From Aliarcobacter cryaerophilus (GTDB lineage: Bacteria; Campylobacterota; Campylobacteria; Campylobacterales; Arcobacteraceae), in the NCBI RefSeq assembly GCF_014352935.1, contig NZ_CP060694.1, forward strand, positions 496,001 to 560,000: a stretch of 64,000 nt of DNA, read 5' to 3'. Below the pieces are notes generated by a model. It saw only the letters and a list, made by a program, of their open reading frames with translations, searched no databases and was not told where the DNA came from. Shown here piece by piece: positions 5,079 through 63,478 of the stretch. Position 1 is the first letter of the stretch. The number at the start of each line of letters is the position of its first letter. Both the position numbers and the translations under genes were made by a program.

Positions 5079-5900
5079 TTGAAAAATATTTTTATCTATA
5101 TAGTTTTATTAAATATTTTTATTTTATTTTTTACAGGATGCTCAAATAAAATTCCATCTTTAAATGATAGAAAGCAGTTGGCTTTTTCTTTGATAAATGA
5201 TAAAAATATTACTCAAAAAGATATAAATACAACTCAATTTAATATATTCTCTTTTCAAAAAGTATCAAATAGTTGTAAAGATGGCATAAAAGTATATATT
5301 GAAGGAGATGGATTATCTTGGATTTCAAGAAATATTGTATCTTCAAATCCAACACCCACAAATCCAATAGCCTTAAAATTAATGCTACTAGATAATAGCT
5401 CTTGCAAAGTATATTTAGCAAGACCTTGCCAATATATAAACTCTAACTCTTGTGAAGAAAAATATTGGACAAGCCATAGATTTAATTTAAAAGTTATTGA
5501 AAGTTATCAAGAGGTTTTAAATAATTTAAAAAAAGAGTATTCAAATACTAAATTTGATTTAGTTGGATATTCTGGTGGAGGAGCAATTGTCACGCTTTTA
5601 GCATCTTTTCGAGATGATATAAATAGTATTACAACAGTAGCTGGAAATTTGGACATAGAAGAGTGGAGTAGAATTAAAAATATTTCAAAGCTAAATGGTT
5701 CTTTAAATCCAGCAGATTTTACTCAATCTTTGGAAAATATTAAACAGTATCATCTTATAGGTTCAAACGATAAAATAATTCCAAAAGAGATATTTTTTTC
5801 ATATCAAAATAGATTTAAAAATAAAAAGAATATAGAATATTTTATATATGAATCTGATCATAGTTGCTGTTGGGAAAATATTTATAAAGAGAGATTTTAG
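5079..5900 (+). CDS. Alpha/beta-hydrolase lipoprotein
   Basis: I chose the TTG at 5079 because AGGAG lies at 5066-5070 with an 8-base spacer. Translation from there gives a lipoprotein signal peptide ending in the lipobox FTGC (Cys near residue 21). The in-frame ATG at 4962 would overlap the preceding gene and bury the signal. The mature protein has an alpha/beta-hydrolase nucleophile elbow, GYSGGG, and a late SDHSCCW segment that could supply the catalytic His. A serine-hydrolase role at the inner or outer membrane is inferred; the substrate is unknown. Its stop overlaps the kdsA stop on the other strand by four bases, so the two genes are strictly convergent. Confidence 0.78.
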   Translation: MKNIFIYIVLLNIFILFFTGCSNKIPSLNDRKQLAFSLINDKNITQKDINTTQFNIFSFQKVSNSCKDGIKVYIEGDGLSWISRNIVSSNPTPTNPIALKLMLLDNSSCKVYLARPCQYINSNSCEEKYWTSHRFNLKVIESYQEVLNNLKKEYSNTKFDLVGYSGGGAIVTLLASFRDDINSITTVAGNLDIEEWSRIKNISKLNGSLNPADFTQSLENIKQYHLIGSNDKIIPKEIFFSYQNRFKNKKNIEYFIYESDHSCCWENIYKERF

Positions 5901-6697
5901 TTTCCTAAAGCCTCTTTAATAGCAAAAATCTCATCCATAGTTTTATAAAGTTGTTCAATATGAAGCATATTTGGTCCATCGCTTTTTGCTGTTTTTGGGT
6001 CAATATGTGTTTCAAAGAAAAATCCATCAACTCCAACACTAGCAGCAGCTCTTGCCATATATGGTACAAATGAGCTATTTCCACCAGTAGTACCTCCAGT
6101 GCTTGGAATTTGTACACTATGAGTTGCATCGAAAATCACAGGAGCATATTGTCTTAAAAGTAGCAGATTTCTCATATCTACAACCAAAGCTCCATATCCA
6201 AAAGTATTTCCTCTCTCACAAAGCCAAACACCAGCTTTTTGGCTATTTTCATAAGAAACTTCGCTTACTCCTCTTGTGTTTAACACTTTTTCAACAGGGT
6301 GTTTCATAGCATCAGCTGCCAAAAACTGCCCTTTTTTTATATTTATTTTTGCTTTTGTTTTAGCAGCAGCTACAAGTAAATCTGTTTGACGACACAAAAA
6401 AGCAGGTATTTGAAGTATATCCATAACCTCTCCAGCAGGAGCAGCTTGATATGACTCATGAATATCAGTAACCACTTTATATCCAAACTCTTTTTTGATT
6501 TTTTCAAAAATTTTTAAACCCTCATCAAGTCCTGGACCTCTAAATGAGCTTAGGCTTGTTCTGTTTGCTTTGTCAAAACTTGCTTTAAAATAAAAATCAA
6601 CTCTTTTATCAAGACTAAGAGGTCTTAATTTTTCTGCTATTTTTAAAACTGTATCCATATCTTCTAAAACACAAGGTCCTGTCATAACTGTCAACAT
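5897..6697 (-). CDS. kdsA: 3-deoxy-8-phosphooctulonate synthase (KDO-8-P synthase)
   Basis: KdsA condenses phosphoenolpyruvate with arabinose-5-phosphate to give KDO-8-phosphate, the precursor of the LPS inner-core sugar KDO. The 266-residue length is normal. Family landmarks include TGPCVLE at the N-terminus, the KASFDKANR substrate loop, SFRGPG, VTDIHE and FDATHSVQ. Cys9 in GPC occupies the position that distinguishes the metal-dependent class from the Asn-containing metal-independent class of E. coli. The AAAAGGAAAA ribosome binding site lies inside a long hairpin (see 6698-6856), so translation may be controlled. It lies downstream of an EamA-family transporter gene, separated by that structured leader. 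Confidence 0.95.
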   Translation of the reverse strand: MLTVMTGPCVLEDMDTVLKIAEKLRPLSLDKRVDFYFKASFDKANRTSLSSFRGPGLDEGLKIFEKIKKEFGYKVVTDIHESYQAAPAGEVMDILQIPAFLCRQTDLLVAAAKTKAKINIKKGQFLAADAMKHPVEKVLNTRGVSEVSYENSQKAGVWLCERGNTFGYGALVVDMRNLLLLRQYAPVIFDATHSVQIPSTGGTTGGNSSFVPYMARAAASVGVDGFFFETHIDPKTAKSDGPNMLHIEQLYKTMDEIFAIKEALGN

Positions 6698-6856
6698 AAT
6701 ATATTTTCCTTTTATTTAATTGGTTCCCAATTAAATAAAAGGAACCATACTATATTAAACTACTTTTTAACGGAATTTATAAAAAATTCCTAAAAGTAGC
6801 TTGTTCGTTCGAACTCTCTTTGAGAAAACTCTAAAGGGCTTCGAGAACGAAGCCTT
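6698..6856 (-). promoter_or_regulatory. Structured 5' leader of kdsA with paired Shine-Dalgarno (copy 1 of a two-copy element)
   Basis: Read on the minus strand, this leader has three parts. First comes a hairpin at 6856-6827 (AAGGCTTCG, loop, CGAAGCC) followed by TTTAGAGTTT. The second is a hairpin with CTACTTTT pairing AAAAGTAG, containing an inner GGAATT/AATTCC stem. The third, next to the gene, allows two exclusive pairings: GGTTCC with GGAACC, or an 18-bp perfect stem at 6706-6744 (TTCCTTTTATTTAATTGG and its complement, three-base loop) that contains the kdsA ribosome binding site. The same plan recurs before bcp (13380-13481) with different stem sequences. Control of translation is inferred; the first hairpin could also terminate transcripts from the upstream gene. 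Confidence 0.6.
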
Positions 6857-6867
6857 GAATTAATTTT

Positions 6868-12869: not shown

Positions 12870-13379
12870 CTAATATTTTGATTGTAATTCTTCTAATTTT
12901 TCTCTAACTTCATCCACATGTAAAATTTCGATTTTTTCTCCTTTTACACTCTTTGTTTTTCTCACACTTACTTTATCCCAAATATATGCTATCTCTCCTT
13001 TTGGATTTATAATAAAAGTAGTTCTAATAACTCCCATAAACTCTTTTCCCATAAACTTTTTTAATTGCCAAACACCATAATCTTGAGCCATTTTTTTATC
13101 TTCATCTGCTAAAAGAGTAATTGCTAAATCATACTTTTCTATAAATTTTCTATGTTTTGCACTATCATCTGGGCTTACACCAATAACTGTTGCTTTTAGA
13201 TTGTCAAACTTATATAAGTTTGCAGTAAAATCACAAGCTTGTGTAGTACATCCAGGTGTCATATCTTTTGGATAAAAGTATAAAACTATCCAATTTCCAA
13301 CAATATCTCTTAGACAAATCTCTGTATCATCTTGATTAAAAGCACAAAATGCTGGTGCTTTGTCGCCTACTTTTAACAT
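12870..13379 (-). CDS. bcp: Thioredoxin-dependent thiol peroxidase (Bcp/PrxQ)
   Basis: This peroxiredoxin reduces hydrogen peroxide and organic peroxides using thioredoxin. From the chosen ATG at 13379 it is 169 residues, with the peroxidatic Cys44 in TPGCTTQAC and the resolving Cys49 five residues later, as in E. coli Bcp. A TTG 15 bases upstream would also be in frame, but the sequence between the two is itself the ribosome binding site (AAAGGAG), so the ATG is correct. That site is part of a hairpin (see 13380-13481). It heads the operon bcp, PgbA-like, glcD-like, yihY-like. Confidence 0.94.
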   Translation of the reverse strand: MLKVGDKAPAFCAFNQDDTEICLRDIVGNWIVLYFYPKDMTPGCTTQACDFTANLYKFDNLKATVIGVSPDDSAKHRKFIEKYDLAITLLADEDKKMAQDYGVWQLKKFMGKEFMGVIRTTFIINPKGEIAYIWDKVSVRKTKSVKGEKIEILHVDEVREKLEELQSKY

Positions 13380-13481
13380 ATATTCTCCTTTCAAATTGGT
13401 TCCCTAATTTGAAAGGGAACCGTTATTATTTAACTTCTTTTAAAAGAAGCAAACTCTAAAGGGCTTTAATAATAAAGCCTT
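13380..13481 (-). promoter_or_regulatory. Structured 5' leader of bcp with paired Shine-Dalgarno (copy 2 of a two-copy element)
   Basis: On the minus strand, directly after the cmoA stop, comes AAGGCTTTA, a loop and TAAAGCCCTT, then TTTAGAGTTT. Next is a CTTCTTTT/AAAAGAAG hairpin. Last comes a segment with two exclusive pairings: GGTTCCC with GGGAACC, or CCTTTCAAATT with AATTTGAAAGG, the second of which buries the AAAGGAG ribosome binding site. The loop text GGGAACCAATT and the downstream AATATAT are shared with the kdsA leader (6698-6856), while the stem arms differ in a compensated way. Translational control is inferred. Confidence 0.6.
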
Positions 13482-13484
13482 TTA

Positions 13485-14192
13485 CTATTTAATTGCTATA
13501 AAAGTTGCAAAGTTTACCCATTTAAAAAGAGTTTCACAATGTTTAAATCCAGCATCTTTTATCATCTTTTTATTTTCATCTTCAGTATAAGGAATAAGCA
13601 CATTCTCCAAAGCCTCTCTTTTTTGAGAGATTTCGAACTCACTATAACCTTGAGTCTTCTTAAAGCTATAATACTCATCTATAAACTGCTTATTCAAAAA
13701 ACTATCTTGTGAAACTAATTTTTCACTAAAGATAAAAATTCCACCATCTTCTAGGCTATCATATATCTTTTTAACTAGTTTTTCTCTATTTATTGGTCTT
13801 ATAAACTGTAAAGTGTAGTTTGCAAGAACAAGATTTGCATTTTTTAGTTCAACATCAAAAATATCACTGTTTAAAAGCTCAATATCAACACCAAAAGCTT
13901 TTGCTTTTTTACTAGCTCTTTGAAGCATCGCTTCTGAATTATCTATTCCTACTAAATTTAATTTATAAGGAGTTGATTTACTAAGTTCAATCAAAGTTGA
14001 AGCAGTTGAACAACCTAAATCATATACTTTGCTATTTTCTTTTAAAAAATTATTGGCAAAAGATATTGATAGTTTTTGCATCTGCTTATAAAAAGGAACT
14101 GAACGCTCTAACATATCGTCAAATACGCTAGCTACCTCTTCATCAAACTCAAACTGTTTTGAAATTGTTTTATTAAATACTTTATCAATCAT
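13485..14192 (-). CDS. cmoA: Carboxy-S-adenosyl-L-methionine synthase
   Basis: CmoA makes carboxy-SAM from SAM and prephenate, the cofactor CmoB uses to build 5-oxyacetyl-uridine at the tRNA wobble position. The 235-residue length fits. Landmarks are the N-terminal [20 protein letters not shown], which is diagnostic of CmoA over other methyltransferases, and the SAM-binding motif [10 protein letters not shown]. It sits 20 bases downstream of ribF on the same strand, so tlyA, ribF and cmoA are probably one transcript. The hairpin right after its stop may end that transcript. Confidence 0.92.
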
Positions 14193-63170: not shown

Positions 63171-63245
63171 TCCGGCATAGCTCAGCGGTAGAGTAGATGA
63201 CTGTTAATCATTTGGTCCCTGGTTCGATCCCAGGTGCCGGAGCCA
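63171..63245 (+). tRNA. tRNA-Asn (anticodon GTT), copy 1, CCA encoded
   Basis: The 75-base gene folds as a cloverleaf. The acceptor stem is TCCGGCA with TGCCGGA, the anticodon GTT is at 63203-63205, and the T-loop is GGTTCGATCC. The discriminator base is G as expected for tRNA-Asn, and the 3' CCA is encoded. Confidence 0.97.
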
Positions 63246-63270
63246 TTTTTTTATTTTAATGATTTTAATT

Positions 63271-63345
63271 TCCGGCATAGCTCAGCGGTAGAGTAGATGA
63301 CTGTTAATCATTTGGTCCCTGGTTCGATCCCAGGTGCCGGAGCCA
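63271..63345 (+). tRNA. tRNA-Asn (anticodon GTT), copy 2, CCA encoded
   Basis: This is identical to copy 1 over all 75 bases, 25 bases downstream. No promoter is seen between the two copies, so they are probably one transcript from the promoter at 63115-63143. Confidence 0.97.
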
Positions 63346-63478
63346 TTTTATAATTTTATTTAAAATTAGAGTTCTTTAAAATATGTATGAAGTTTATAAG
63401 TAATCTTTGTAAACTAAATATAATGATTGTTAAAAGTAAAAAAATTGAACAAGATATAAATATTGTAAAAGATATTTA

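Follow-up and report, generated by a model that had tools for sequence, protein, structure and literature searches.

In phage T7, the RNase III sites between cistrons are hairpins that follow a stop codon, precede the ribosome site of the next gene and recur along the operon. Translational riboswitches and other bistable Shine-Dalgarno leaders have a structured domain and, downstream of it, hairpins that exclude each other, one of them burying the Shine-Dalgarno sequence; the preQ1-II riboswitch (RF01054) is small and pairs its Shine-Dalgarno sequence. The boxA leaders, such as that of suhB, have CUUUA near the start codon and are used at several genes (PMC5725501). REP and GTAG-tagged palindromes and other bacterial MITEs are short, dispersed palindromic repeats (PMC3733652, PMC2229807). 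The main text of Stav et al. 2019 reports intergenic candidates of Arcobacter sp. L, some of them unnamed Arcobacter-only motifs (PMC6429828).

The element described here, a leader of about 120 nt, resembles each of these systems in part. Compared by placement, it resembles the T7 sites, to which it adds a two-state Shine-Dalgarno module. It shares the architecture of the translational riboswitches but precedes dozens of unrelated genes, in many copies per genome and with frequent loss, and it differs from preQ1-II in genes and sequence. Unlike the boxA leaders it has a large extra structure, and unlike the palindromic repeats it is strictly sense and start-adjacent and has its GTAG inside a stem, and the genome has no Y1 transposase. 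Literature searches found no description of it, and the main text of PMC6429828, in which the same family was scanned, has no matching one, although an overlap is possible. The Rfam check that the initial annotation had proposed gave no match: in Rfam 15, at gathering and permissive thresholds, no family reached its gathering cut-off on the bcp or kdsA copies. The preQ1-II model was rejected, with 25.8 bits on the bcp copy against a gathering score of 47 and no match to the kdsA copy. As far as these comparisons go, the element is one member of a previously undescribed, dispersed Arcobacteraceae family.

Organization of the Leaders before bcp and kdsA

The window (the whole 64,000-nt stretch that was analyzed) carries the element before bcp and before kdsA (Table 1). 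The leader before bcp is a minus-strand RNA, and bcp, kdsA, and their upstream genes are all read from that strand. From its 5' end, the element is made of a P1 hairpin, an unpaired CUUUAG-nn-UUUUG segment (J1/2), a P2 hairpin, and an A-X-A'-X' module. J1/2 is near invariant (CUUUAG, 1-3 nt, and UUU(U)G), and P2 has a conserved asymmetric internal loop, mostly A opposite GNUA.

The stop codon of cmoA is at 13485 and the bcp element begins 1 nt later. Its outer AAAG/CUUU can lengthen P1 beyond a 1-nt bulge, to 13458-13483, and its P2 has only the outer part, the inner stem being also present in most other copies. The start codon of bcp, at 13379, is served by the Shine-Dalgarno sequence AAAGGAG at the 3' end of the element. 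The kdsA copy is placed likewise, between kdsA and a minus-strand gene with no NCBIfam match. Its optional insert, between J1/2 and P2, consists of CUCAAAGAGAG and GUUC..GAAC mini-hairpins and is also found in one Campylobacteraceae copy (L353).

Table 1: Features of the two leaders and their genes (window coordinates).
Feature	Position	Strand	Remarks
Whole element before bcp	13385-13483	-	5' end at 13483; R2 match G000:C1:509386-509485, 82.6 bits
bcp copy, P1 hairpin GGCUUUA-UUAU-UAAAGCC	13462-13479	-	P1 covariation in 66-copy alignment
bcp copy, J1/2, unpaired, near-invariant CUUUAGAGUUUG	13450-13461	-	
bcp copy, P2 hairpin CUUCUUUU/AAAAGAAG, outer part only	13434-13449	-	
bcp copy, A arm GGUUCCC	13415-13421	-	
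bcp copy, X arm CCUUUCAAAUU, anti-Shine-Dalgarno	13406-13416	-	
bcp copy, A' arm GGGAACC	13398-13404	-	
bcp copy, X' arm AAUUUGAAAGG	13387-13397	-	Overlaps Shine-Dalgarno AAAGGAG (13385-13391)
bcp, thioredoxin-dependent thiol peroxidase, downstream gene	12870-13379	-	NF006960, 151 bits, over cut-off
cmoA, co-directional upstream gene of bcp copy	13485-14192	-	TIGR00740, 264 bits
Sister element before kdsA	6707-6857	-	R2, 88.5 bits
kdsA copy, P1	6837-6854	-	
kdsA copy, J1/2 CUUUAGAGUUUU	6825-6836	-	
kdsA copy, optional insert, two mini-hairpins	6801-6824	-	In 13 of 152 copies
kdsA copy, P2 with inner stem	6760-6799	-	R3, 47.5 bits
kdsA copy, A-X-A'-X' module with Shine-Dalgarno	6708-6746	-	
kdsA, 3-deoxy-8-phosphooctulonate synthase	5897-6697	-	TIGR01362, 357 bits

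Conserved Structure and Covariation

The word AACTCTAAAGGGCTT, which the initial annotation had noted in both leaders, has exact matches at 13452-13466 and 6827-6841, and allowing up to 2 mismatches adds no further site in the window. By itself it is modest evidence, 4 of 100 shuffles having reached two matches at that threshold. The identical loop GGGAACCAATT and the three differences between the paired arms of the bcp and kdsA copies were found as described. Two copies alone could not prove the covariation read from them, but it is real, as 66 aligned copies demonstrate. In this alignment 97.2% of the cells are paired versus 77.9% in shuffles, with none of 500 shuffles as high, a count that is biased upward by the fitting of the alignment to the model. 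Double changes fill 364 cells versus 97 in shuffles, both sides change at 26 of 32 pairs, and sliding the partners by 1-3 columns destroys the signal. The earlier conclusion that the RNA structure matters is supported. Orthologous copies at single genes give the same picture: among the pair comparisons of five bcp copies from three genera, 210 are identical and 40 are changed on both sides, and none is single-changed or broken.

G-U pairs exceed A-C mispairs by 53:19, the p value being indicative only because the copies are related, and this excess would be expected if the sense RNA is the strand that pairs. G-U pairs are scarce overall (about 1%), so correction of one arm against the other in the DNA may also take place. 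Such templated correction of palindromes could add to the covariation, since nearly all changes are double.

Alternative Hairpins at the Ribosome-Binding Site

The ribosome-site stem exists as first described, but its competition with GGTTCCC/GGGAACC had been overlooked. X' holds the Shine-Dalgarno sequence, and the A/A' and X/X' hairpins are mutually exclusive: they cannot both be fully paired because X lies inside the A/A' loop and the linkers are 0-1 nt. A full H-type pseudoknot was set aside because its loops would be 0-1 nt. Constrained folding of 145 copies gave -9.3 kcal/mol for the free state and -6.7 kcal/mol for the buried one (shuffled, -3.8 and -3.3), with a median gap of about 2.5 kcal/mol, and both hairpins are below -5 kcal/mol in 100 copies. 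The A arms vary widely (GGUUCC, GGUCCC, GGUUACC, and their partners) while both alternatives persist. Covariation and calculated folding both point to two competing folds, one with the Shine-Dalgarno sequence buried and one with it free. An RNA thermometer was rejected, as the calculated free-minus-buried gap is nearly constant from 5 to 50°C.

We regard it as an even call that the element is a cis-acting 5' leader working through a two-state Shine-Dalgarno hairpin, with a core read by a putative common factor. Pairing of A with A' would leave the Shine-Dalgarno sequence in X' free and the next gene would be translated, whereas pairing of X with X' would bury it. The core (P1, the unpaired CUUUAG-nn-UUUUG, and P2) would be read by the common factor, which would bias the switch or lead to processing of the transcript; an RNA-binding protein, a ribonuclease, or the terminating ribosome are candidates. 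We infer that the hairpins interconvert in the cell, under the control of the core. The leader reading is supported by the covariation of all helices, by the unbroken pairing among the bcp orthologues, by the G-U excess, and by the two hairpins, which are far more stable than shuffles and separated by a small gap. It is weakened by the unrelated genes and frequent loss described below, by the contribution that templated correction could make to the covariation, and by the separability of the parts: the adk copies of two genomes (G000 and G014) keep the core and lack the switch, and elsewhere the switch stands without the core.

A lone A-X-A'-X' Shine-Dalgarno module precedes an rpmA-like gene in a genome that belongs to a different family within the order (L276). 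In other Arcobacteraceae genera, other small hairpin repeats are found 3' of the core within the A-X-A' loop (L365, L374, L379, L380).

Distribution and Placement in the Arcobacteraceae

The genome-wide covariance search that had been proposed was performed with R2, a model built from the element with the ribosome-site module included. Nine copies were significant in this genome, before mrp, gatC, DJ-1, thrB, adk, kdsA, thiD, bcp, and an isochorismatase-like gene, the last copy being degenerate; gene names lacking a profile match were read from translated starts. A pattern search had given three leaders further to those of bcp and kdsA, before adk, mrp/apbC, and the DJ-1-like gene. The last module alone precedes other genes of this genome (weaker matches), including a hypA-like one, and hypA bears the full element in another genus. 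Within the genus, blast found matches in 27 of 31 genomes. Across the family, R2 matched 79 of the 104 Arcobacteraceae genomes, from 16 of the 20 genera, with 1-25 copies per matching genome and about 500 in total (summed table). Only four other genomes sampled across the phylum had matches, all weak.

All 152 aligned Arcobacteraceae copies are sense and immediately precede an open reading frame. The start codon was located automatically 0-23 nt past the model end in 151 of them and is visible by eye in the remaining one (L033). A core-only model of J1/2 and P2, R3, was built because the ribosome-site module of R2 might favour leaders, and all of its 21 inspected matches (in 20 Arcobacteraceae regions drawn from them) were also sense leaders. 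Among these 173 Arcobacteraceae copies none was antisense or intragenic, and this placement is further support for the leader reading. The leader is mostly intercistronic: the upstream gene is co-directional for 134 of the 152 copies, often with 0-15 nt between its stop codon and P1. The 18 other copies follow divergent genes, and the 30-194 nt that remain there could hold a promoter; transcription of the element is therefore probable at these sites, which also favours the leader reading.

Clustering of the proteins encoded downstream of the 152 copies gave 71 clusters; 13 of them occur in more than one genus, and no pathway is common to the 71. Families named by profile are bcp, kdsA, cysK, gatC, prpF, mrp/apbC, hypA, hypB, cysD, thrC, thrB, metE, hemE, ispH, hom, NifU-like, and others. 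Sulfur/threonine genes and Fe-S/redox genes turn up repeatedly, but no enrichment is claimed. The initial annotation had proposed a reusable control module before unrelated genes, which agrees with the sense, start-adjacent placement, but the coherent regulon that it looked for did not appear.

The Core outside the Arcobacteraceae

Among the genomes sampled from other families, R3 matched 22, most of them from a single family taken to be the Campylobacteraceae. The core there precedes genes, for example an infA-like gene (twice in tandem), and in single genomes lies just upstream of 16S (L349) or 23S (L274, L338). In two genomes it is antisense at the 23S 3' end (L343-L348), and other copies are antisense to neighbouring genes. 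Copies in both orientations and away from starts had been named in advance as the mark of a passive repeat; this pattern is absent in Arcobacteraceae, whereas in Campylobacteraceae the core is present in either orientation and also next to rRNA genes.

Several core copies without the switch precede genes on Campylobacter phage or prophage contigs, and an Arcobacter-like viral contig carries the full element (viral-contig loci L287-L288, L291, L292-L294, L296; the hosts of viral contigs were inferred from sequence). Searches by blastn of INPHARED phages and PLSDB plasmids gave no match, and IMG/VR contigs do have the element. Loose core patterns in viral contigs are mostly chance matches; the pattern with a paired P2 was found at at least 41 sites, of which at least 2 (L497, L582) look like chance.

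The best reading of these sequences is that the core is a Campylobacterales dispersed repeat, joined in Arcobacteraceae to the two-state Shine-Dalgarno hairpin and used there only as a leader. The control-module and mobile-repeat descriptions are thus each right in part. More tentatively, and with clearly less confidence than in the leader reading itself, one could envisage an RNA module of the order, spread over host operons, rRNA borders, and phages, in which one trans-acting factor would read the CUUUAG-UUUUG/P2 core and set the Shine-Dalgarno hairpin before tens of unrelated genes, the set being changed by copying or deleting the module. If translation control is confirmed, copying of a 120-nt cassette would be the means by which Arcobacter-type bacteria bring many unrelated genes under shared post-transcriptional control, and regulons are seldom seen to grow in so plain a way. 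Hundreds of natural variants with compensatory paired changes provide a ready-made mutational series.

Turnover and Mobility

Upstream of bcp, the 31 congeners present full sites, partial ones (P1 plus the switch, or only the switch), remnants left by internal deletions, and cleanly empty sites that read AAATAAAGGAG followed by ATG. The same mix was found at kdsA, and both elements are lost or decayed in most relatives. The X arm CCCTTTCAAATT is common to distant congeners, which suggests that the bcp copy is old and was repeatedly lost. The near-identical P2 of the kdsA, mrp, and adk copies of this genome indicates that copying between sites happens.

The main rival to the leader reading, which we consider unlikely but not negligible, is a selfish or passive MITE-like repeat that would insert at, or recombine via, AAAG(G) near ribosome-binding sites, with hairpins serving mobility and only incidental effects on genes. 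The variable copy number, the empty, full, and remnant orthologous sites that one expects of a mobile repeat, the near-identical P2 hairpins, tandems joined at AAAG, and the orientation and rRNA neighbourhood of the Campylobacteraceae core all speak for it. However, it does not predict the absence of antisense and intragenic copies among the 173 Arcobacteraceae copies, nor the sense-strand G-U bias. Some genes also bear the element across genera, and bcp and cysK do so with a same-sized upstream neighbour; together with the clusters found in more than one genus, this suggests long-term inheritance of part of the sites. Neither this genome nor 29 of 30 congeners have a Y1 transposase, and mobilisation of the IS200/IS605 or RAYT type was rejected for this genome on that ground. 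If the element is mainly mobile, it would be a repeat that settled near-perfectly strictly at ribosome-binding sites in one family, and it would show how repeats can give rise to leader RNAs.

Tandem head-to-tail copies, the inner ones without a Shine-Dalgarno sequence, were seen at L363, L042, and G081:C1:42760-42990; L363 has three tandem 112-nt units joined through AAAG (920-1197).

Other Explanations

Rather less probable than a mobile repeat is an intercistronic site of mRNA processing or stability, in which P2, a long stem, would be cut by RNase III or would block RNase J, separating the cistrons and protecting the downstream message in the manner of the T7 sites. Such a site would fit the filling of operon junctions, often a few nucleotides past the stop codon, the conserved P2 internal loop, and the core before several Campylobacter phage genes, but it leaves the unpaired CUUUAG-UUUUG and the two-state module unexplained, as well as the 18 copies that follow divergent genes. 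A metabolite riboswitch is improbable. In its favour are the structured domain with its conserved unpaired bases, the Shine-Dalgarno switch downstream of that domain, and the recurrence of sulfur/threonine genes (cysK, cysD, metE, hom, thrB, thrC) and of Fe-S or redox genes; against it stand the 71 clusters with no common pathway, the frequent loss, and the lack of any Rfam riboswitch match.

Finally, a Nus-factor (boxA) site that would recruit NusB/S10, with effects on translation or on termination by Rho as for suhB of E. coli, recalls the CUUUA of the core and the copies that some Campylobacteraceae have immediately before 16S or 23S, but it is very improbable and was rejected, since the CUUUAG of the element has G at an A position of the published consensus GYTCTTTAANA (PMC5725501) and no conserved YT before it, whereas the rrn leader of this genome has a perfect match to that consensus, GTTCTTTAAAA, at window positions 63371-63381. 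At 63171-63342 of the window, just upstream of the 16S rRNA gene, lie two tandem tRNA genes with equal scores.
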